Shown: positions 37 to 46,871 of the stretch, in pieces
Position numbering within the stretch: the first letter of the stretch is position 1
Layout: each line of letters opens with the position of its first letter
From: Capsaspora owczarzaki ATCC 30864
Lineage: Eukaryota; Opisthokonta; Filasterea
Direction: 5' to 3'
Assembly (NCBI RefSeq): GCF_000151315.2
Contig: NW_011887302.1
Coordinates: 925,108-989,107 of the forward strand
Length of the DNA: 64,000 bases
The notes under the pieces: model-generated
What the model was told of the DNA's origin: nothing
The model's database searches: none
What the model saw: only the letters and a program-made list of their open reading frames with translations
Program-made: the position numbers and the translations under genes

Positions 37-1082
37 TCTGTACCAGAATCAGATTGGCAACGCTGGAGCGACGGCGATTGCTGAAGCACTCAAAGTGAAC
101 AAGACGCTGACTACGCTCTCGTAAGGCATCTCACTTTGACTGATGATGGTGAGTGAAAGATTTAATCAGAGCCATTCTAACTGATGAGGGATGGACAGTC
201 TGAGTGGGAATCAGATTGGCAATGTGGGAGCGCAGGTTATGGCTGAGGTACTCAAAGTGAACACGCTGACTGAGCTCAAGTAAGTCATCTCACTTTGACT
301 GATGCATGGAAGCTGAAGCTGGGTTTTCACTGTACTCACTGATGGAGGGGATGGACAGTCTGCGCCAGAATCAGATTGGCAACGCTGGAGCGACGGCGAT
401 TGCTGAAGCACTCAAAGTGAACACAAGACTGACTGGGCTCGAGTAAGGCATCTCACTCTTGTTGGTGCATGTGAGTTGGTGATTCAGAAGAGTACTCATT
501 GATTGAGGGGCTGAACAGTCTGTGGGAGAATCAGATTGGCGATGATGGAGCGCTGGCGATTGCTGAAGCATTCAAAGTGAACACGACGCTGACTACGCTC
601 AGGTAAGGCATCTCACTTTGACTGATGCATTTGAGTGGGTGATCCAGAAGAGTGCTCATTGATTGCGGGGATGAACAGTTTGCACCAGAATCAGATTGGC
701 GATGCTGGAGCGCAGGCGATCGCTGAGGCACTCAAAGTGAACAAGACGCTGAAGGAGCTCTTGTAAGGCATTTCATTTTGAGTGACGTGTGCGAGTGGGT
801 GATTCATAAGAGCGGCTCACTGATAGAGGAGATGTGGACAGCTTGTGGAGGAATCAGATTGGCGATGCTGGAGCACAAGCGATTGCTGAGGCACTCAAAG
901 TGAACAAGACATTGAAAACGCTTTTGTAAATATTGATCGCTACAAGATGCTCTGACAGCCGTTAAACTCATGCTCCAATCTGACGATGTGATTGACAACA
1001 ACAACAGTTTGAACGAGAATTTCCTGACCAACACCGGAATCAATGCACTCAGGCAAACCGGCAATACCACTTGTAACTTTAA
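37..1082 (+). repeat. Tandem LRR exon-intron array (period about 160 bp)
   Basis: Seven LRR exons, six of them 81-84 nt, separated by introns of 76-82 bp (121-198, 280-358, 443-518, 603-678, 763-841, 926-1007). The introns are themselves similar: most open with GTAAGGCATCTCACT, several carry TTTGACTGATG and AAGAGTGCTCATTGATTG, and all but one end in GG-ATG(A/G)ACAG or close to it. Repetition covers coding and non-coding parts alike, which implies duplication or conversion of whole exon-intron units. Confidence 0.92.
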
Positions 1083-2369
1083 GTAAGACTGTTTGTTTAT
1101 TGGATTCTTGCATGAACAACAAGCCACTCACCTGCTTTTGGCGAACTTGGGTTTCCGAACAGAGACCTTGACCAGCAGCGTGTTCCGTCGTCTGCCGAAC
1201 TGGCGCAGATTGCAGCTCGTGCCGCTGCGAACGTGGCAGAGATTCAGCAACTGCGCGCCAAGTTGGCCACGGAAGATCAGGAGCTCGCAACCAACAAGCA
1301 GGAGCTCGCAACTAAAGATCAAGCACTCGCTGCCAGAGATCAGGAGCTCGCTGCCAAAGACCAGCAGCTTGCTATCAAAGACCAGGAGCTTGCTGCCAAA
1401 AATCAGGAACTTGCAACCAAGGATCGTGAACTGAAGTTAGCTCTTGATCGTATCGACGTACTGGAGCGCAACCAAGGCGCCGGTGGATCCGCCTCAAACT
1501 TTGACGGTCCCATCCCACAAGTGCCTCTCGCCACTCTCGCCTCCGCCACGAACAATTTCGCTGCGGATTCTCTGCTCGGCGAAGGAGCATTTGGTCGTGT
1601 GTACAGTGCCAGTTTGCCTGCTCCTCCCGTTGCCGTCGCCATCAAGAAGCTGTCCGCCGCATCGATCCAGCAGTATGCAGCGTTTCAGGCAGAGTTGAAA
1701 TCTCTATCTAAATTCCGTCACCCCAACATCATTGTCATGCTGTCCTATGCCGAAGCTCAGGGTGAATATTGCTTGGTTTACGAGTTCATGCCGAATGGTT
1801 CTGTACGCGATCGTCTCAGCTGCAAGAACGACACTCCTCCGCTGACTTGGTCCCAGCGCCATCGCATCGCGGCTGATGTCGCCCGTGGCATGCACTACGT
1901 CCAGACAGCCTTTCCTGACCATGTTCTGTTCCACCTCGACCTCAAGACGGACAATGTTCTGCTGGACGCACACTTCAATGCAAAAGTGTCTGATTTTGGT
2001 CTCGTCCGTGCTGCCGAGCATCTTGATGACAAGAGCTACCTTCGCACAAAGGTTCCTCAAGGCACCGTTCCTTACATGTGTCCCGAGTTCTTAGAAGGCC
2101 GCATGACCATCAAGACGGACGTTTATGCATTTGGCATGATTTTGCTCGAGCTTGTGACCGCCGCCAAGCCTGGCAACCGCCTGAAACTCGATGCACGAAA
2201 GGCTGTGAAAACCCAAAACGTCATTGGCATGCTGGACTCGGCGCTCAAACCAACCGACGCAGAGCGCCAAAGCGTCAGCAGCATTGTCACTCTTGCACTC
2301 GAGTGTCTTGATGAAGATGCCGATGAACGGCCATCCTTTGGACGCCTCATTGCTACATTGGATCTTTGA
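37..2369 (+). CDS. LRR-coiled-coil-protein kinase (TKL, RLK/Pelle/IRAK-like), 5' partial
   Basis: Exons 37-120, 199-279, 359-442, 519-602, 679-762, 842-925, 1008-1082 and 1124-2369; the gene starts before the window. Each of the first six exons encodes one 27-28-residue LRR (pattern L..NQIG.AGA.AIAEALKVN.TL..L) bounded by phase-2 introns; the seventh is a degenerate capping repeat. The last exon encodes a heptad-repeat coiled coil (KDQELAA-type units, about 1256-1430) and then a kinase domain: glycine loop GEGAFGRVY, VAIKKL lysine, catalytic loop HLDLKTDN, DFG, and CPE in place of APE. An ATNNF stretch just before the kinase and the overall pattern resemble plant RLK/Pelle and IRAK kinases. 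The HRD arginine is replaced by Leu (non-RD), but Asp, Lys, Asn and DFG are kept, so it is probably active. No transmembrane segment lies in the visible part. Function as sensor or signalling kinase is inference. Confidence 0.9.
1256..1430 (+). repeat. 21-bp minisatellite coding for heptads
   Basis: About eight imperfect 21-bp units (…GATCAGGAGCTCGC…) translate to seven-residue repeats of the type K/R-D-Q-E-L-A-A/T. The unit length equals one heptad, so copy-number change lengthens the coiled coil without breaking the frame. Confidence 0.85.
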
Positions 2370-2699
2370 TGACATGCTGTATTGCCCGTTTCAAGATCCA
2401 ACCAAGGCGAGTCTGTTTGCCTTTCGTTCAGGTGATGCATTCAAAGTTTGATGCGTCCTCCCAGTGTCTTGCTGTTGTTGTTGCTGTTGTTGTTGTTGAG
2501 TTGTTGTTGTTGTCGTACTAGTCGGTAGTCGCAGTTTTGTGCTTTGTGCGTTGCGCTCATTTTCGCGAATGCAAATCGTCCTAACAACCCAACAATTCTG
2601 CACGACAACGCACCACGACTGTAACATTGTGGCTCATCATAACTCGATTTCGATGTCATAATCCTGATGAGATCACTTCTCTTTTTTCCATATTCCCAA
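2370..2699. other. Spacer and 5' leader with GTT/GCT microsatellite
   Basis: Lies between the kinase stop and the NFX1 start. It holds an imperfect GTT/GCT trinucleotide run near 2466-2515. No other gene or RNA is recognisable. Confidence 0.6.
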
Positions 2700-5600
2700 A
2701 TGCTTGATCCAACTGCAGCGCCGTTTGAGCCTTCTTCTTCGTCTTCGTCGTCGGTCTCACTCGGTCGCCAGTCGCCCTCAGCCGCCAATCACAGTAGCAC
2801 TTCTGCTACCTCAACGAGCACAACTGGCTCATCGTCATCCAGCTCCAGCGCTCAGCAGCAGCAGCGCCGCGGTCCAAGGCAACCCAGGCAGCCGCGTGCG
2901 AGCCAAGCGATCGCCAGCAGTGACGCTGCCGCCCCGTCCGATGCCGACGGCACTGGCACGAATGCACGCTCTGCAGGCACTAATACGCAGGCAGCAGCAC
3001 GCCCGCAGCAGCAGCAGCGACCGCGCAAGACGACGACGACTGGCGCACCACAGCCGATGTCGTCATCAGGATTCGTGTCGCAACCAGACCAGAGCTCAGT
3101 CCCAGACGCGGCTGTCGGCAGTGACAATGCATCACAACAGGCATCATCACAAGCACCGGCGTCGAGTGCGGGTCGCGATCGCACCCGAGACCGAGACAGG
3201 CGGCGAGGATCACCCAAGCCCAATGCAAACGTCAATGCTCAAGCCAATGCGCCGTCAAGCACCACTACTGAGGATGGCTCAACATCCACTCCCGCCGATT
3301 CCGACATGGTGAATGCTGCTGCTGCCCCAACATCAAGACAGCAGCAGTCTCGTAATACCAACAGTCGCCAACGCAATCCGCGTCGAGACATCTCCGAAGT
3401 ATCTGCCGAGCACCAACCACCGGTTACATCATCCGAATCGATCGCCGCTCCAACCCCGCAACGGGTCAAGGAACGTGGACAATCGCGCAAGACACTGGCA
3501 TCACAGTCACCTGGCGCACAGGGCGACGCTCCAGCCTCAAGTAGTGGTCGGAACAGACGATCCAACACGAGCAGTCCCGCCGCGCAACAACCACACTCAA
3601 CCAATAGCAACACCAACAACAACAACCTGCCTTCGACGGAAGACTCGACGACGGCGACGACGACGACCGAGTCACAAACTGCACCACGAATCAACACGCC
3701 TCGGAGTGCAGCTGGACGCCGCATCCCAAAAAACGTCACCGAACTGACCGCCGACCTCATTTCCCAGCTCCGCGACAACTCGTACGAATGCATGGTTTGC
3801 TGCGACCGCATCACACGCAAACAGCCCGTCTATAGCTGCAGCAACTGCTACGCAGTCTTTCACATTGCATGCCTCAAAAAGTGGGCATCGTCCGCTGCAT
3901 CCACGTCCTCCTCGGGTGGCTCCAACGCCAACGCAGCCGGCTGGCGTTGCCCGGGCTGCCAGCACGTCTCTGAGCGCGACCAATTGACCTACACTTGCTT
4001 TTGCGCAAAAGTGCGAAATCCCGACTGGAATCCGCACCACACGCCTCACAGCTGTGGCGAAGTCTGCAGCAAGTCGCGCCGCGGGACTTCCTGTCCGCAT
4101 CCTTGCCCTCTATTGTGCCATCCGGGTCCCTGCAGCCCGTGCACCGTCATGCTCACCAAAAAGTGCCACTGCGGCAAGTCGTCGCTCCGTGTGCGTTGCG
4201 GCGACCCCACCGCGTCGCTCGCCTGCGAACAAACGTGCGACCGCTTCCAGTCCTGCGGCCGTCACACTTGCCAACAGCGCTGCCATGATGGGCCTTGCCC
4301 TCCGTGCGACCACTCAGAGACGCAGCGTTGCTACTGCGGCGCCCACACGCGGATTGTTGCGTGCGGCACTGGCGAGCCTGACTTTGCGCAGCGCCTTCGC
4401 ACGCCCTCCGAAGGGGCCCCGAGCGAGGCGAATGTGATTGACGGTCCGGCGTTCTATTCGTGTGCCAGTGTTTGCGGAAGCCTGCTTGACTGCAAGCAGC
4501 ACGAGTGCCGGCGAACGTGCCACGCTGGGCCTTGTGCCGACTGCCCTTTGACTCCTGCACGCGTCACCACCTGCCCCTGCACCAAAACCCCGATCGACGT
4601 GCTACAGCAGAAGCAGTCGGGCGGCGCCACCGCCCGCCGCTCTTGCCTCGACCCTGTTCCCGTCTGCGGCAAAACGTGTGGCAAGCAGTTGCCGTGCGCG
4701 CGCTTTGACACGACAGGCAAGGGCAGCCACCGGTGTACCCTGCCGTGCCACGAAGGCCCTTGCTCCCCTTGCCCATCCTCTGTCCGGATGGTGTGTCGGT
4801 GCAAAATGTCTGATCGGACGGTTCCCTGCGCCGAGCTGGCTGCGTTCGGTCGTGAACAGCGCCACATTGCTCTTGCCTCTGGCGAGATCACTGCAGAACA
4901 GGCTGAGAGCATGGACGCAGAGGACGCGGATCACGAGCGCCTGGGCGAAACGCTCACGCAGCTCGCCTTCCGTTGCGACCGTGTCTGTCGTGCGCTGCGC
5001 CATTGCAAGCGCCACAACTGCGGCATTCGCTGCTGCACCACCGGCGAGCGCAAGAACGCGCCCGATGCCAGCGGCGTGCACATTTGCAAGCTGGTGTGTG
5101 GCAAAAAGCTGCAGTGCGGCTTGCACAAGTGTGAAGAAGTCTGCCATCCCGGCCACTGTGCCCCTTGCATGCAGTCCACCTTTGACGAGGTTGCCTGTGA
5201 GTGCGGCAAAACTGTTCTCTTCCCGCCAATCCGCTGCGGCACATCGTTGCCGCCGTGCCCGTACCCGTGCACCCGCGAACACGGCTGCTCGCATCCCGTG
5301 CTCCACACCTGCCATCGCGACGTCAAGTGTCCGCCCTGTGTGACGCTGACGCCCAAAATGTGCATGGGTGGCCACGAGCTTCGCAAGAGCGTCCCGTGCC
5401 ACATCCAGGATGTGTCTTGCGGCCGAGCCTGCGAACGCACGCTGTCGTGCGGCCAGCACACGTGCCAACTGACCTGCCACAAGGACGCCTGTCAACAGTT
5501 TGACACCCCGCTGCAGCCCGACGAGCTCCGCGCATGCACCCGGCCCTGCGGGCGCCCTCGGCTCATGTGCGAGCACGCTTGCGCCACGCCCTGTCACCCG

Positions 5601-6731
5601 GGCCAGCCGTGCCCAGAAACCCCCTGCCGCGAGCTTGTCCGCATTACGTGCAAGTGCAACACGCGCCAGCAGATGGTCCCTTGCGGGCTTGGCGCTGGTG
5701 TGCCTGGCTCGATGGAGGCAACGCGCGGCATGTCCTTGGTCGACTTTGCGCTGGCCCAGCGGTCGCTCAAGCAGCCCGACCAACAGGCCATCCCGCTTCG
5801 CGTTCGCTCGCACGAGCAAGTGCTCGAGTGCGACGGCGAGTGTGCTTTGGTGGAGCGCAATCGTCGCCTGGCCGAAGCGCTCGGCATTGAGCATGCCAAC
5901 CTCACCTCCGTGCCCATCTTGCCCGGTACCAACAGTAGTAGCCACGAGCTGGGCGCAGCGTTGTCGGGCGAGGCCGCCAACACCAACGGTCTGACCATGG
6001 ACGCGGCGTCCTACTACCAAGCTGGCAGCGCCGCACCGCAACAGACGCGCCCTGCCGGTGTCAGCGGCGGTGCTGTGAGCTACTCTGCCTTCCTGTTTGA
6101 TGCGGCGAAAAAGACTCCTGCGTTCATCACTTCGTTGGAGGAAACATTGCACCAGTTCATCATGCGCGACACGGCCACTCGGTCGCGCTCGCTGCAAGTG
6201 CTCAACGCCCACTTCCGCCGCGTGGTGCACGAGCTTTGCGAGCACTACCGTGTCAAGACGTTCTCGCTGGACGAGGAACCAAACCGAAATCCAGTTCTCA
6301 CAAAGACGCCTCTCTCGCACGTCCCCGCCATTTTGCTCTCGGAAGCCGCGCGGGCGTACAACCCCGACACAATGGGACCAATCACTGGCGATGTGTGGAT
6401 TCGCTTTGGAGGTGGTGCGGGAGCCGGAGCAGCTCCGCAAATTTCGCTTCGAACGGACAGCTTTGGCTCGTTCGCTGTGCGCGCACCCATGGCCACATTC
6501 CCAGTCCAACAACAGCAGCAACAACAAAGCCCCCCTGTGACTAGCACTGGATCGTCGGACGTTTGGAACAGCGGTGGTGGTTGGGACGACAGCCCTGCAG
6601 CGTCAACGCCTGTTGCCGCAACTTCCGCATCGAGCTCAGAGGCCCCAGCGTCCCCCGCTGTCACTGCTGCTCCTGCCGAATCCACTGACTCTGCTGCTGC
6701 CCCTGAAGACTGGATGGCCCGAACGGAATAA
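2700..6731 (+). CDS. NFX1: NFX1-type zinc finger protein (NF-X1 / FAP1 / shuttle craft family)
   Basis: Single-exon gene, about 1,343 residues. The start at 2700 is preferred over an in-frame ATG at 2667 because it puts the PAM2-like motif LDPTAAPFEP (the PABC-binding type also found at the NFX1 N-terminus) at the very beginning. A Ser/Gln/Thr-rich disordered stretch of about 350 residues follows. Next come a RING/PHD-like Cys4-His-Cys3 module (around 3790-3970, CMVCCDRI…FHIACLKKW…CPGC), about nine NF-X1 fingers of the form C-x3-C…H-x-C-x3-C-H-x-GPC-x2-C (about 4050-5640), and an R3H domain (about 6110-6330). A polyQ/Ser/Ala tail ends the protein. Family members act as nuclear transcription or RNA regulators and ubiquitin ligases; the order PAM2-RING-NFX1 fingers-R3H is complete here. 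It faces the NOX gene tail to tail. Confidence 0.93.
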   Translation: MLDPTAAPFEPSSSSSSSVSLGRQSPSAANHSSTSATSTSTTGSSSSSSSAQQQQRRGPRQPRQPRASQAIASSDAAAPSDADGTGTNARSAGTNTQAAARPQQQQRPRKTTTTGAPQPMSSSGFVSQPDQSSVPDAAVGSDNASQQASSQAPASSAGRDRTRDRDRRRGSPKPNANVNAQANAPSSTTTEDGSTSTPADSDMVNAAAAPTSRQQQSRNTNSRQRNPRRDISEVSAEHQPPVTSSESIAAPTPQRVKERGQSRKTLASQSPGAQGDAPASSSGRNRRSNTSSPAAQQPHSTNSNTNNNNLPSTEDSTTATTTTESQTAPRINTPRSAAGRRIPKNVTELTADLISQLRDNSYECMVCCDRITRKQPVYSCSNCYAVFHIACLKKWASSAASTSSSGGSNANAAGWRCPGCQHVSERDQLTYTCFCAKVRNPDWNPHHTPHSCGEVCSKSRRGTSCPHPCPLLCHPGPCSPCTVMLTKKCHCGKSSLRVRCGDPTASLACEQTCDRFQSCGRHTCQQRCHDGPCPPCDHSETQRCYCGAHTRIVACGTGEPDFAQRLRTPSEGAPSEANVIDGPAFYSCASVCGSLLDCKQHECRRTCHAGPCADCPLTPARVTTCPCTKTPIDVLQQKQSGGATARRSCLDPVPVCGKTCGKQLPCARFDTTGKGSHRCTLPCHEGPCSPCPSSVRMVCRCKMSDRTVPCAELAAFGREQRHIALASGEITAEQAESMDAEDADHERLGETLTQLAFRCDRVCRALRHCKRHNCGIRCCTTGERKNAPDASGVHICKLVCGKKLQCGLHKCEEVCHPGHCAPCMQSTFDEVACECGKTVLFPPIRCGTSLPPCPYPCTREHGCSHPVLHTCHRDVKCPPCVTLTPKMCMGGHELRKSVPCHIQDVSCGRACERTLSCGQHTCQLTCHKDACQQFDTPLQPDELRACTRPCGRPRLMCEHACATPCHPGQPCPETPCRELVRITCKCNTRQQMVPCGLGAGVPGSMEATRGMSLVDFALAQRSLKQPDQQAIPLRVRSHEQVLECDGECALVERNRRLAEALGIEHANLTSVPILPGTNSSSHELGAALSGEAANTNGLTMDAASYYQAGSAAPQQTRPAGVSGGAVSYSAFLFDAAKKTPAFITSLEETLHQFIMRDTATRSRSLQVLNAHFRRVVHELCEHYRVKTFSLDEEPNRNPVLTKTPLSHVPAILLSEAARAYNPDTMGPITGDVWIRFGGGAGAGAAPQISLRTDSFGSFAVRAPMATFPVQQQQQQQSPPVTSTGSSDVWNSGGGWDDSPAASTPVAATSASSSEAPASPAVTAAPAESTDSAAAPEDWMARTE

Positions 6732-40469: not shown

Positions 40470-42524
40470 TTGCTCAGTCCTTTTCCAATGATGCTGATGC
40501 TGACGCGTGGAGTGCAATCCATGCACCCACTTGCCGCCGCTGCTGCTCCTTCTGCGACGACGAGTGGGTTATTAACTCCCATTGCCATGATCGCCACTCG
40601 CGCTGCTCCAGCTGTCGCCGCTGCCCAGTCCAAGCGAACTGCGAGCAGAGTCAGCAGCGGACGTATGAAAGCAATCTCCGACAATCCTTCCAGCCTGACT
40701 GGAGGTCTGTTGCGACGCCACTTTAGCTCCACTGCGATCGCTCAGGCATCATCAACGTCATCATCGTCATCAGCATCGGCTCAGGGCGCGGTGCCCAGCG
40801 TGTGCGATGTGCTCATCCTCGGCGGCGGAGTTGTCGGATCGTCGACCGCGTACTTTACGTCGTCCAGGTTCCAACCGCGTGCGCCGGGCCAGCCGCCAGC
40901 TGCAATTGCGCAGAGCTCATCCGCAAGCAATCCGCGCGTCGTTGTGATTGAGCCAGACAGCTCGTACGCGTCGGGAGCCACGGCGAGGTCGGCCGGATCG
41001 ATTCGGCTCCAATTCTCAACGCCAGAGAACGTTCTCATCTCGCAGTTTGGAGCCCACTTTCTCAAGAACTTGAACAGGTACGGCCGCAGCAGAGAGCGAA
41101 TATCTCGAAGTGGATGAATACGTTGCATTTGGTTGAGTCACGCTTGGTGCTTCGAGTGTCACAACTCCGCCCGAGACCAGGACTCAGTCTTCTCCCGCTA
41201 ACTCCGCCGTATCCATGACGGCTTTGAATCTGGTGTTGTTGACGAATTGCAAACAGCTATCTGAAAGTGGATGATGACATTGACTTCAAGTTGCATGAAA
41301 AGGTATCTGAATTGAAATTCCGGATTGCAAATCGTTGCACCCCCACACAGCAAGCAACTGACTCCATCTCTGTGTCTTGGGATCTTTGTTACTTGGAACT
41401 TTCTCTCAACTCTCGACGTTAGGGATATCTCTTCCTGGCCACCAAGGCATCGGCAGGCGTCCTGGCCAGCAACTCGGCCATCCAGAACAGCCTCGGCGCC
41501 AAGACTCTGCTGCTGACTCCGGAGGCCATCCGGGAGCGTTTCCCTTACATCCACACGGAAGATCTCGACTCTGGCGCTCTGGGACTGGAGAACGAAGGCT
41601 GGTTTGACCCCTATTTGCTCATGACCCTGTTCCGTCGCAAGGCCATTCAACAAGGCGTTCAATACGTGACTGGATATGCCATCGATTTCAAGAAGGACTC
41701 GACCGGCAGGCGCGTGGAGCGTGTGGTCGTCCGACTCGCAGACGGGTCTGTCACAGAGATTGGCGTTCGCTCGAATGTGGTCAACGCGTCGGGCATTGTT
41801 GGTGCAAGTCTCACCGCCAAGCTGGATCCATCGTTCGATCTTCCCGTTCGGCCGCGCAAGCGCTTTGTCTACGTGCTTTCGCTGAAGGAGCGGCTACCAG
41901 ACAACTGCCCATTGGTAAAGGGGATGCGCGAGGCTTTTTTTTTTTGATTTTTTGTTTTTGGATTGGCGTGAATCGCAAACTAACCTGTCTTTCTCTTGGA
42001 TAGGTGATTGACCCTTCAGGTGCATACTTTCGACCGGAAGGACAGCAGTACATTTGTGGTATGTCGCCTCCTGAGAACGAAGACCCGGACTGCACCGATC
42101 TGGAAGTGGACTACAGCATGTTTGAAAACACGGTTTGGCCCATCCTGGCATCGCGCGTACCTGCATTCGAGTATGCCAAGTGTGTGAATGCCTGGGCTGG
42201 CCACTACGACTACAACACGTTCGACCAGAACGTAATTCTCGGTCCCCATCCCAATGTCTCCAACTTTTTGCTTTGCAACGGCTTTTCCGGCCACGGTTTG
42301 CAACAATCTCCGCAATCGGGCGGGCGCTCAGCGAGCTCATTGTTGACACAAAGTTCTGTAAGGCTTTGAGCGGAGTGTGGAGAGCGGAAGGCGTGGATTT
42401 GTGCTTGTCAAGAGGTTGACTGTTTTTGGCGTGTGTTTGAACAACAGCTACGCTCGACTTGGCTCGACTGTCTGCTGATCGACTCTTCAACAACATGCCT
42501 GTTCTCGAAGTGAACGTTGTTTAG
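40470..42524 (+). CDS. FOXRED1: FOXRED1-like FAD-dependent oxidoreductase, one-base frame break
   Basis: Exons 40470-41077, 41257-41302, 41423-41914, 42004-42357 and 42448-42524. An N-terminal Ala/Ser/Arg-rich stretch (about 100 residues) looks like a mitochondrial presequence. Then come the FAD dinucleotide motif [74 protein letters not shown], and the hallmark [17 protein letters not shown] plus [11 protein letters not shown]. All joins agree in phase except that exon 4 is one base short: after GLQQSP the family pattern ([15 protein letters not shown]) continues in the next frame, from about 42311. With one base more, exon 4 would join exon 5 ([14 protein letters not shown], stop at 42524) in phase. 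This suggests a sequencing deletion or a very recent mutation. FOXRED1 is a complex I assembly factor of the DAO family. Confidence 0.92.
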
Positions 42525-42777: not shown

Positions 42778-44474
42778 TTAGACATATCCTACATAAACCG
42801 CCTCAAATAGAGCATCTCCACAATCGTTGAGTAGAAATCGAACTTGCCAACCCTCGCGCATTTGCCGGAGGATGGGAGTAGTCGCCGGCTCGATCGTCGC
42901 AAGAGTGAGGTTCGAGTTGACGAAAGTCGGGTGCACAGCACATTCGTATCGAACAGCACCTTGTTCATCTTGGACAGTCAAATCGAAAGCACAGTCGTCG
43001 ATGTCGTCAAGCTCGCTGCTCCAGTCACGAAGCACTTGAATTGCTTTCACACGGATTGAATCTCTTTGAGGCACAGTGACTTTCAGGATATCGACATCAG
43101 AATCCCCTCGCTTGGTGCGCAGCACGCCTTGCCAGTAATGCGCTTCGTCCATGATCAGGCCGGCAATCTCGGTTGGTAGTGCAGGTAAACATGCGGGCTG
43201 ATTCTCCAGCTCCAAGCCGCTGGTCAGCATGCGGAACACTTTTTGGATGTCTTTAGCAGTTGCCAGTCGTGGAAGTAAGGAGAATGCAAGAGGATTGACC
43301 TGATCGTAGTAGCGGCTGAGCAAGGAACATGCACAGTATAAGTATGGCCACTCCATTGGAACAGGGACATTGCCTGAGCATCACGGGTATGATTAGCAAG
43401 GACAGCTTACTCAATTTCAATTCTACAGGTGACTTTGCTTGTCTCATCGAGCGCTTGAAAACCAAGATTGCCAATGCAATTAGAACGTAGACTGTCGCGT
43501 AATGCATGAGCGGGAATGAACTTTGCAGACTGGCACAATGTCCGAGACCAGCAGAGCGCATAGAAGCTTACGAGAGCTGATTCAGCTTCGAGTTCACTTT
43601 GAGTGCTTCAGCCACTCCTTGCGCTCCAACATCGCCGATCTGATTCTCGTGGAGACTATGCATTCCCTTCTTCAGTGAGCACTCTGCACGCCCCTCGATG
43701 GAATCACCACTCTCATGCACCAGTCAAAGGGAGATGCTGTACCTAAGCTCAGTCAATGTCGAGTTCACTTTGAGTACCTCTGCAATTGCCTGCGCTCCAG
43801 CATCGCCAATCCGATTCCCAGCCAAACTGTCCATTCCCCTCCGTCAGTGAGCACTCTTCGTCCTCTGGATAGCTCACTCACATACACCAGTCAAAGTAAA
43901 ATGACTTACTGGAGCCCAGTTAGCGTCTCGTTCGCTTTGAGTGATTTAGCGATTGCTTGAACTCCAGAATCGCCAATCTGATTGTTACTCAGACTGTCCA
44001 CGTCCCCCTCCATCGGTGAGCACTCCGACTACCCTCTGCTGGATTGCTCACTCACATACACCAGTCAAAGTAAAATGACTTACTGGAGCCCAGTTAGCGT
44101 CTCGTTCGCTTTGAGTGATTTAGCGATTGCTTGAACTCCAGAATCGCCAATCTGATTGTTACTCAGACTGTCCACGTCCCCCCTCCATCGGTGAGCACGC
44201 CGACTAACCTCTGTTGAAATCACCCATTCGCATGCATCGGTTAAAGTGAAGTGGCTTACTCGAGCCAAGTCAGCCTCGTGTTCGCCTTGAGTGCCTTCGC
44301 AATGGCCTGCGCACCAGCGTCGCCAATCTGCGCGTCACTCAGACTGTCCATCATCCATTTTGTCAGGGTATTCGTGGCCACATTGTTCCGACACACTCGG
44401 GATTTTTCTTACTCGAGGATTCCATCCGCATCCCTCGCTTGGCCATACAGACTGCGCCGTCTCCTGTTCCTCAT
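42778..44474 (-). CDS. LRR - transmembrane - C-terminal domain protein, exon-per-LRR
   Basis: Eight exons on the minus strand: 44474-44413, 44343-44260, 44167-44084, 43993-43910, 43826-43743, 43655-43572, 43520-43411, 43373-42778; total 1,188 nt, 395 residues, every join agreeing in phase. Exon 1 begins MRNRRRRSLYGQARDADGILE. Exons 2-6 are each 84 nt and encode one LRR (L..NQIGDAGAQAIAEALKVN…L), phase 2 as in the gene at the window start. Exon 7 has a single hydrophobic helix (HYATVYVLIALAILVF) followed by KRSMRQAK. Exon 8 carries about 195 residues with LPALPTEIAGLIMDEAHYW, reminiscent of F-box-like N-termini in some fungal proteins, and ends EAVYVGYV; I do not recognise this domain firmly. 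No signal peptide is evident, so topology is unclear. The intron 43374-43410 is only 37 nt and 43521-43571 is 51 nt. Confidence 0.75.
43572..44343 (-). repeat. Second tandem LRR exon-intron array
   Basis: Five 84-nt LRR exons with introns of 87, 83, 90 and 92 bp. Read on the minus strand the introns open with GTAAG(T/C)CA and carry ACTTTGACTG and AAGAGTGCTCA and end in GGACAG, the same words and order as in the plus-strand array at 37-1082. Confidence 0.9.
43872..44194. repeat. 174-bp tandem duplication with about 136 bp of perfect identity
   Basis: 43872-44007 is repeated without change at 44046-44181, spanning one whole LRR exon (43910-43993 and 44084-44167) and parts of both flanking introns. 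After a one-base C-run difference the similarity goes on for about another 15 bp. Confidence 0.93.
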
Positions 44475-44816: not shown

Positions 44817-46871
44817 ATGGCTGAACCGAGCATTGTCCACATTCAGAACTTTATCGACGGCCAGTTTGTCGACTCGAGCGCATCGCCGCGCATCGACAGC
44901 TTCAATCCAGCGACTGGGCGTGTGCATCTGACCATGCCGAACAGCACTGAAGCGGACGTCAACGCGGCCGTCGCTGCTGCTTCCGCGGGTGAGGGACACA
45001 GAGTCACGGCCTCGAACAACCGGCATTGCATTGGGGAAGAAGTGGGGTGTGCAATCCCCAAGCACACTGTTTGCTGAAATAGCAAAGGCATTCGAACTTG
45101 AGTGTCGAGTGACCGTGAGAGTCGGGGTGGAGGAAGCGAGGTTGAGTGTGCCGGGGTTGGATACTGCTTTCATGACCGTCCGCAGTCGGATTGGAAGGAG
45201 ATACGACCTGATCCTCCTTGGACTACTTTTATTCTCTGTTTACTCATTCGCATCGTGGAGATGGAGATGCGGTGCTGTTGGAGGTGCTCGTGCGGGAGAT
45301 GAGTCTGACCAGTCAAGCTCCAACTTTGAAAGTCTCAGAACTGTCAAAAAACTGTGAATTGACTCGAACTACCATTGCTCTTAGTATTTCGTAAACTCAT
45401 CTGAGGTTGCTGTTTTGTCTCATTATTATTATTTTTTTTATTGTTTCGCGGGCAACTCCAGGTGGGCAGCTACACCGAGACAAACCCGGTCAAACATCCT
45501 CTACGCGATCGCCAACGCCATCGAGGCCAGGCTGGACGAGTTTGCCGAGGCAGAGTCGCGCGATCAAGGCAAGCCGGTGTGGCTGGCAAAGTCCGTCGAC
45601 ATTCCGCGCGCCGTGCACAACTTTCGATTCTTTGCGGGCGTCGCGTTGCATCAGGTCGACCATTCGACCGTGAATGACACGCTGGGCGCCGTCAACTACA
45701 CGACCCGATCGCCGGTTGGTGTGGCGGGTTTGATTTCGCCGTGGAACTTGCCACTGTACCTGCTGACCTGGAAGATTGCCCCGGCGCTGGTGTACGGCAA
45801 CACGGTTGTCGCCAAGCCCAGCGAGATTACGTCGTTCACGGCCTACCTCCTGGCGAAAGTGCTGAACGACTGCGGCGTGCCGCCAGGCGTGTGCAACATT
45901 GTCTTTGGCTACGGTTACACGGCGGGTGCAGCTCTCGTTGCCCATCCCGACGTGCCAATGATTTCCTTCACTGGCGGCACGGTCACGGCTCGGGCCATCA
46001 TTCAGGCCTCGGCGCCTCACTACAAGAAGCTGTCGCTCGAACTTGGTGGGAAAAACCCCGGCATTGTGTTTGACGACGCCGACATGTCCAAGTGCGTTGC
46101 GGGCATTGTTCGCTCGTCCTTTACCAACCAGGGCGAAATCTGCCTTTGCACGAGCCGCATCTACGTCCAAGAGTCCATCTTTGAGACTTTCCTGCAGCGC
46201 CTCGTGGAGGAAACTCGCAAAACCATCACTATCGGCAATCCGTCGCACCCCGGCACCACGATGGGACCGCTGGTGAGCCGTGAGCACTACAACAAGGTCA
46301 TTTCGTATGTTGGGTTTGCAAAGGAGGACGGCGCACGCATCCTCTGCGGCGAGACGGTCGATCCCGCCATTCGCGACTCGCTGCCCGCAGAACTGCAGGA
46401 TGGCTACTTTATGCGCCCAACCATTGTCGCCAACCTGCCGGAATCGTCGCGCTGCATCCAAGAGGAAATTTTCGGCCCCGTCATTGTCGTCAACTCGTTC
46501 AAGGACGAGGCCGATGTCATTGAGCGATCCAACGGTGTCAAGTACGGTCTGGCGGCTTCCATCTGGACTGAGAATGTTGGCCGCATGCACCGAGTTGCGC
46601 ATGCCATTGATGTAAGAGTCTGTTATGTTGGTTTTTGATGGTTGTTGGCATTGCACAGCTCTGTCTGCTATTTTGGCAACATACTCGACACTCACGCCTG
46701 CTTTTTGTTTCACCCCGTACACAGGCTGGCACAGTGTGGGGCAACTGCTGGATGGTGCGTGACCTGAACATGCCGTTTGGCGGCATGAAGCAATCGGGCA
46801 TCGGGCGAGAAGGCGGACAAGATTCGATCGAATTCTTTACCGAAGCCAAGACCATCTGTGTCAAAATGTGA
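44817..46871 (+). CDS. ALDH8A1: Aldehyde dehydrogenase 8A1 (2-aminomuconate semialdehyde dehydrogenase)
   Basis: Exon 1 44817-44988 (MAEPSIVHIQNFIDGQFVD…), exon 2 from about 45462-45470 to 46611, exon 3 46725-46871. The core shows SPWNLPLYLLTWKIAPAL, NTVVAKPSE, FTGG, LELGGKNPG with the catalytic Glu, QGEICLCTSRIYV with the catalytic Cys, EEIFGPV, and the family-specific end NCWMVRDLNMPFGG and GIGREGG. The NCW(M/L)(V/I)R(D/E)LN wording is characteristic of ALDH8A1, which oxidises 2-aminomuconic semialdehyde in the kynurenine pathway. The exon 1-2 join is not settled: exon 1 ends in phase 1, the acceptor giving the expected Trp (RWAATPRQTR) needs phase 2, and an alternative acceptor 8 bp further on (GGGCAG|CT) fits phase 1. 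A small missed exon in the 480-bp intron is possible. Confidence 0.94.

Follow-up and report, generated by a model that had tools for sequence, protein, structure and literature searches.

Leucine-rich repeat exons and introns of Capsaspora owczarzaki appear to form one genome-wide pool with a highly diverse concave face

Genes encoding one leucine-rich repeat (LRR) per exon are already known from a ciliate and from brown algae. In the ciliate Tetrahymena, LRR genes are reported to be made of tandem 90-bp exons separated by phase-2 introns, and exon plus intron together form the repeat unit (PMC6564038). The closest relatives of an LRR exon often lie in a different gene and not in its own, and unequal crossing-over/ectopic recombination was proposed for these arrays. 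The same text gives over 1,000 LRR genes for all but two of ten Tetrahymena species, links these genes to a LINE-like element and to pericentromeric and subtelomeric regions, reports introns of about 257 nt for the youngest T. thermophila group, and considers that the 90-bp design may have evolved once only, in Tetrahymena (PMC6564038). In brown-algal ROCO genes (PMC11378527), each LRR occupies a 72-nt phase-2 exon, exons are shuffled and positively selected sites lie on the concave face. LRR-ROC-COR is the sole ROCO architecture in these algae and occurs along with LRR-only sequences (PMC11378527).

Two vertebrate families are also comparable. Human NLRs (PMC6642158) have frame-preserving LRR exons and ribonuclease-inhibitor (RNI)-type repeats of about 28 residues, as found here; they are few genes, and their modularity is discussed with regard to alternative splicing. 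Unlike in NLRs, NACHT was not found in three C-terminal stretches scanned here. Zebrafish NLR-B30.2 genes (PMC4852459) form a large receptor family with gene conversion and positive selection, as the genes described below seem to do; there, the diversified part is B30.2 and not the LRR.

We analysed a stretch of 64,000 nt (the window) from the genome of the filasterean Capsaspora owczarzaki, together with related arrays elsewhere in this genome. Its LRR genes share with those of Tetrahymena one exact LRR exon length, phase-2 introns, repetition of whole units and mixing of units between genes. In contrast to the 90-nt exons and introns of about 257 nt reported there, exons are here 84 nt long and RNI-type, with introns of 83 nt (median), and no contig-end bias parallels the pericentromeric/subtelomeric association. 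With brown-algal ROCOs they have in common the LRR per phase-2 exon, shuffling, selection at concave sites and Roc among the partner domains. Unlike the 72-nt exons of LRR-ROC-COR genes, exons of 84 nt are shared here by a pool that feeds a kinase, Roc and a tail of unknown type. The arrays closely parallel this known design, with a unit length, LRR subtype and variety of tails of their own. The ciliate, brown algae and this genome have exons of different length, different intron sequences and different LRR subtypes, which suggests that the design arose repeatedly. Among the papers listed in literature searches, with most subscription journals lying outside their reach, none describes such arrays for Capsaspora or for any other filasterean. 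As a close relative of animals, Capsaspora would lend itself to studying how LRR recognition repertoires become diverse where there is no animal immune system.

The window contains two LRR arrays, A1 and A2, with the following features:

37..925, plus strand: A1 LRR array (exon parse, repeat and HMM matches)
37-120, 199-279 (81 nt), 359-442, 519-602, 679-762, 842-925, plus strand: A1 LRR exons (exon parse)
121-198, 280-358, 443-518, 603-678, 763-841, plus strand: A1 introns (exon parse)
1008..1082, plus strand: degenerate LRR cap exon of A1, 75 nt, LNENFLTNTGINALRQTGNTTCNF, followed by GTAAG at 1083
1116..2369, plus strand: open frame holding the C-terminal part of A1 (open-frame list and Pfam)
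44413..44474, minus strand: first exon of A2, MRNRRRRSLYGQARDADGIL; it looks like the N-terminal exon located upstream of A1
43572..44343, minus strand: A2 LRR array, five 84-nt exons, phase 2/2, AG/GT borders
44343-44260, 44167-44084, 43993-43910, 43826-43743, 43655-43572, minus strand: A2 LRR exons (exon parse)
44259-44168, 44083-43994, 43909-43827, 43742-43656, minus strand: A2 introns (exon parse)
43872..44182, minus strand: recent tandem duplication of a unit within A2, period 174, identical run of 137 nt
43411..43491, minus strand: LRR cap exon of A2, 81 nt, LRSNCIGNLGFQALDETSKVTCRIEI in the frame of the array (exon parse)
42778..43380, minus strand: C-terminal tail of A2, type 'T'; related tails follow other arrays

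A first-pass annotation of this DNA had proposed that the two arrays have related introns, and it placed them correctly: both consist of phase-2, mostly 84-nt LRR exons with introns of 76-92 nt (76-79 nt in A1, 83-92 nt in A2). Their opposite orientation is likewise as proposed, with A1 on the plus strand (37-1082) and A2 on the minus strand (44474-43411). A1 comprises six LRR exons and the cap exon; five of the six measure 84 nt and the other 81 nt. More of this array lies 5' of the window, where the DNA match extends to C11:924660. The A2 gene begins with ATG at 44474 and its last canonical LRR exon ends at 43572. Its internal duplication is seen as a segment (44182-44046) identical to a copy 174 nt further along.

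LRRs of A1 match Pfam LRR_6 in six stretches (E 3e-35), that is, 28-residue repeats of RNI/NLR type, and their PDB matches in sequence search include ribonuclease inhibitors and NLRPs. In the C-terminal part of A1, coiled-coil-like repeats recognised by eye are followed by a protein kinase domain (PF07714, E 1.8e-45, about nt 1566-2360 in the Pfam scan). For the A2 tail, no Pfam match exceeded the cut-off, sequence search against PDB gave nothing convincing (best E 0.72) and the predicted structure was poor (mean pLDDT 51.1). The transmembrane tail previously ascribed to A2 had to be rejected, the segment YVLIALAILVF being an out-of-frame reading of the 81-nt LRR cap exon (43491-43411). By eye, the short N-terminal exon MNQRQRKLYDQVKDASGELK upstream of A1 is similar to that of A2, so the two genes seem to share 5' architecture and to differ in their C-termini. 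The view that the rest of the two genes is unrelated does not wholly hold, given these look-alike N-terminal exons. The pattern LxxNCIG...QALDE of the A2 cap exon recurs in locus L041 (LENNCIGQVGIQALDEARKV), after another array with A2-type tail.

The first LRR exon of the A1 gene, located upstream of the window (L009:1034-1115), seemingly lacks the usual end and 5' splice site and reads on into GTCATCTCAC. The gene may splice differently or be damaged; not every gene of the family need therefore be functional.

Similarity of introns was assessed using an intron-start pattern, GTAAGNCATNTNACTTTGACTG (22 bases, up to 3 mismatches allowed). It has eight matches in the window, four per array, with 0.02 expected and eight or more in none of 100 shuffles. 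The intron words quoted in the first-pass annotation occur in both arrays, but as exact words in only part of the nine introns. This concerns ACTTTGACTG (three of five A1 and two of four A2 introns), AAGAGTGCTCA (one of five and one of four; within two mismatches, two of five and three of four) and the GGACAG intron end (three of five and three of four). Genome-wide, the 10-base word ACTTTGACTG is present 282 times, compared with 93 times for its reversed word, and LRR exons were found at only one of eight places fetched with it (L001); by itself, it is a weak marker. Longer motifs are specific. Patterns of 29 bases (up to 3 mismatches, each with a reversed control) matched at 220 places for the intron 5' half, 169 for the intron 3' half and 611 for the exon core, with 0 for each control. 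All 20 further places opened, chosen from the three pattern lists, proved to be LRR arrays; other LRR genes commonly carry the intron motif, as anticipated.

One explanation is that introns are conserved by function, as splicing code, regulatory RNA or recombination signal, and that the cassette moves through them. The motif is indeed long and ordered and, among the 20 places opened, confined to such arrays. Splice sites and the branch-point-like GCTCAC are the most conserved parts of introns, the GCTCAC segment being nearly invariant. However, most of the intron shows no excess constraint, since Pi between 59 arrays amounts to 0.318 in introns and 0.309 at four-fold sites, and Rfam yielded no match in the window at gathering thresholds. 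We therefore consider functional conservation very improbable and do not favour it as the main cause of the similarity. Because introns diverge like four-fold sites, they look like passengers, their similarity reflecting shared ancestry and homogenisation.

The whole genome (27.46 Mb, 29 contigs) was searched for related arrays. DNA searches returned at least 81 matches with the A1 query (40 of 217 candidates scored) and at least 101 with A2 (40 of 199), which were grouped into 60 arrays. From these, 58 were read, along with L001 (found via the 10-base word) and 20 arrays from the pattern lists. The resulting 79 arrays contain 617 exon matches, 572 of which measure exactly 84 nt between AG and GT (or GC), and 476 introns; no stop was found in any of the 572 exact exons. 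Intron length ranges from 59 to 104 nt (median 83 nt, 387 introns of 59 arrays). According to an exon/phase model read from DNA parse and translation, the unit consists of a short intron and an 84-nt exon, which encodes one 28-residue RNI/NLR-type LRR and has phase 2 at either end. Extrapolation from pattern counts gives 102-137 arrays, and A1 and A2 are members of one predicted superfamily of about a hundred genes.

Classified by 3' flank, 27 of the 79 arrays have a kinase tail, 39 an A2-type tail and 13 are unassigned, in several cases because the flank is missing. Among these 13, L019 carries a Roc GTPase after the LRR array (PF08477, E 9.7e-20; L019:2500-3906, in array orientation). It is a putative ROCO-like member built from units of the same superfamily; no COR match was obtained in the scanned L019 stretch. 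The parts of A1 and A2 scanned against Pfam do not mark them as ROCOs, and the same database gave no NACHT in the A1 kinase part, the A2 tail, the L025 tail or the L019 stretch. A subtelomeric nursery of the arrays was considered and rejected, as proximity to a contig end (within 100 kb) was seen for 9 of the 60 arrays, compared with 8.2 expected.

To estimate relationship between units, trees of 476 units were constructed from exon backbones and from introns separately, and monophyly was scored for the 73 arrays with four or more units. Not a single array is monophyletic on either tree (0/73 on each), in line with the first-pass annotation. Array labels change 405 times on the exon tree and 393 times on the intron tree (minimum 78, shuffled mean 433), and array identity accounts for 4.2% and 4.5% of the divergence among units, respectively. 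Tail family explains about 1%, a small share yet above every permutation. Only 37 of 387 units (59 arrays) have their nearest unit within their own array. Further, linkage disequilibrium (LD) decays from an r2 of 0.0114 between sites 6-15 nt apart to 0.0037-0.0044 at distances above 80 nt, against a null of 0.0033, and is near null within one unit. It correlates with log distance at -0.247 (sd under permutation 0.015). Within introns LD exceeds the null (0.0056-0.0133), possibly owing to two intron length classes, and alignment or multi-base mutation may be responsible for LD between very close sites. The pattern shows exon and intron copies as what appears to be one genome-wide pool, with no array-specific lineages.

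Could plain family history, that is, an ancestral diverse array duplicated about a hundred times with no later exchange between loci, produce the same picture? It would account for the similar N-terminal exon and for recent duplicates with shared flanks, such as L034/L059 (99.2% identity over 2,236 nt). It also agrees with the colinear nearest neighbours observed for 62 of 318 adjacent units (chance 0.56). Nearest units share the same index from the 5' end more often than expected (0.368 vs 0.117) because of recent duplicates; the value drops to 0.203 after removal of pairs closer than 10%. These blocks of descent (colinear neighbours, shared index) indicate that whole-gene duplication contributes too. 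On the contrary, same-index units are 0.233-0.269 apart, compared with 0.252 for all units, and are no closer than random once recent duplicates are removed, which argues against mere duplication of diverse ancestral arrays. Moreover, arrays are less diverged than their kinases at four-fold sites in 74 of 78 pairs, the array figure being the best of several registers, which lowers it; contrary to our first expectation, we read this as homogenisation. In 42 of 69 kinase-gene pairs (p<0.001), the closest introns resemble each other too much to have descended clonally at the four-fold divergence of the kinases, given equal mutation in introns and kinase four-fold sites. Near-identical blocks in diverged arrays (L015/L016) and mosaic units (L052/L060) also speak against family history as the sole explanation, and we regard it as improbable.

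Exchange between loci, as claimed in the first-pass annotation, is supported by such near-identical shared blocks and by one 5' end that occurs with two different C-termini. The latter is the case of L015 (A2-type tail) and L020 (kinase), which have similar 5' flanks (486 nt at 81%, reciprocal best) together with a 200-nt block at 97%. In total, 46 pairs of arrays have stretches of at least 120 nt in common at 97% identity or more, and in 12 pairs the shared stretch lies only inside the arrays. L015 and L016 have 137 nt at 100% inside otherwise diverged arrays. The first six compared units of L012 and L014 are 0-2% apart and their kinases differ by 0.239 at four-fold sites. Mosaic units of L052/L060 combine exon 0.99/intron 0.83 beside exon 0.81/intron 0.99. 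Since shared blocks range from less than one unit to about 2 kb, what is exchanged is no fixed cassette.

Between families with different tails, the closest pair of kinase-tailed and A2-type units is 5.3% apart and the closest intron, among the pairs listed, 1.3%; no very recent transfer between the two families was caught. Nearest neighbours of kinase-tailed units are kinase-tailed in 105 of 122 cases. Together with the 1% share explained by tail family, this indicates that exchange is rarer between tail families than within them. Both the search for absence of the motif from other LRR genes and that for array monophyly were carried out; neither refuted the earlier interpretation, which is supported.

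We examined where in the exon the diversity resides. Pi at codon positions 1+2 (59 arrays) is 0.659 in concave codons vs 0.177 in the others, the variable xLxLxxN codons being presumably, from LRR consensus, those of the concave beta-strand. For independent near pairs that were selected by one intron and scored on the other, the ratio of concave to intron divergence is 2.46 (95% 2.01-3.01, 70 pairs); a second set of near pairs gives 2.57 (2.06-3.22, 66 pairs). At codon level, concave codons of the 70-pair set have an N:S of 129:3, and the remaining codons one of 193:92. Since concave codons lie far above the neutral yardstick, this pattern points to diversifying selection on the binding face. 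Introns act here as a built-in neutral clock, so that binding-face selection and recombination rates are directly measurable.

Alternatively, concave diversity might result from relaxed constraint or local hypermutation at exon ends. Variable codons are in fact located at exon ends, and per-site pN/pS in concave codons is only 1.05, because third positions are diverse there too. Changes in near-identical exons are also often multi-base in concave codons (19 of 34 changed codons, compared with 1 of 42 elsewhere; Fisher p 7.3e-8). Relaxed constraint cannot, however, surpass the neutral rate, which concave codons exceed 2.46- to 2.57-fold relative to introns, and the Leu codons between the variable ones are much less diverse. 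Local hypermutation is compatible with both of these points. Taken together, we find relaxed constraint or hypermutation unlikely and prefer diversifying selection. As for the multi-base changes themselves, repeated selection, short templated conversion and local hypermutation are all possible. Short conversion donors for single replaced concave codons were considered and not retained, as for 8 of the 16 single-codon pairs the 15-nt context of neither version was met again in other exons examined.

We consider it quite probable that these arrays result from ectopic recombination and gene conversion between units that leave the frame intact, together with diversifying selection acting on the binding face. 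With the same phase at all unit borders, gain, loss or swap of a unit would be frame-neutral (at the level of DNA). The 70-80% identity of unit backbones and introns would provide substrate for ectopic homologous recombination (unequal crossing-over, gene conversion), which would reshuffle units within and between loci and could bring similar 5' ends together with a kinase, a Roc GTPase or the unknown tail. The expected outcome is homogenised backbones, reassorted units and occasional new array-tail pairings, and diversifying selection at the binding face would act on the reassorted units. Proteins of the superfamily may be intracellular receptors recognising ligands or microbes. The first-pass annotation had seen here a modular system for diversifying recognition domains: pooling of modules is supported, and recognition is read from LRR type and diversity pattern only.

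Lamprey variable lymphocyte receptors likewise show concave-face LRR diversity generated from modular repeats, through somatic assembly by template copying. They resemble the present arrays in both concave-face diversity and modularity; their assembly is somatic, and here one assembled genome was read. It is conceivable, if rather doubtful, that this unicellular relative of animals keeps a shared, continually recombining library of intronated LRRs that feeds several signalling outputs. Binding-face codons would then be replaced whole, perhaps through templated conversion over very short tracts or through some directed process, and the library would act as a germline (or even within-clone) diversity generator resembling an immune-receptor library.

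Several minor observations were made in the course of the analysis. Integrin-beta matches are present at four loci of the genome; a Rel-homology domain had no match in the genome, nor in the controls. Four near-identical kinase-tailed arrays (L075, L076, L077, L078) lie about 1-20 kb from the starts of contigs C5, C18, C14 and C9, which suggests spread between contig ends. L083 and L084, two oppositely oriented arrays on C8 with about 20 kb between them, contain blocks more than 99% identical at different offsets, and some of these blocks are also found in L052 on C9. In the window, A2 lies between two genes (40490-42370 and 44818-46870) that resemble, by eye, a FAD-dependent oxidoreductase and an aldehyde dehydrogenase. 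A long open frame at 2643-6731 contains many Cys-rich repeats, which we take to resemble NFX1-type zinc fingers.
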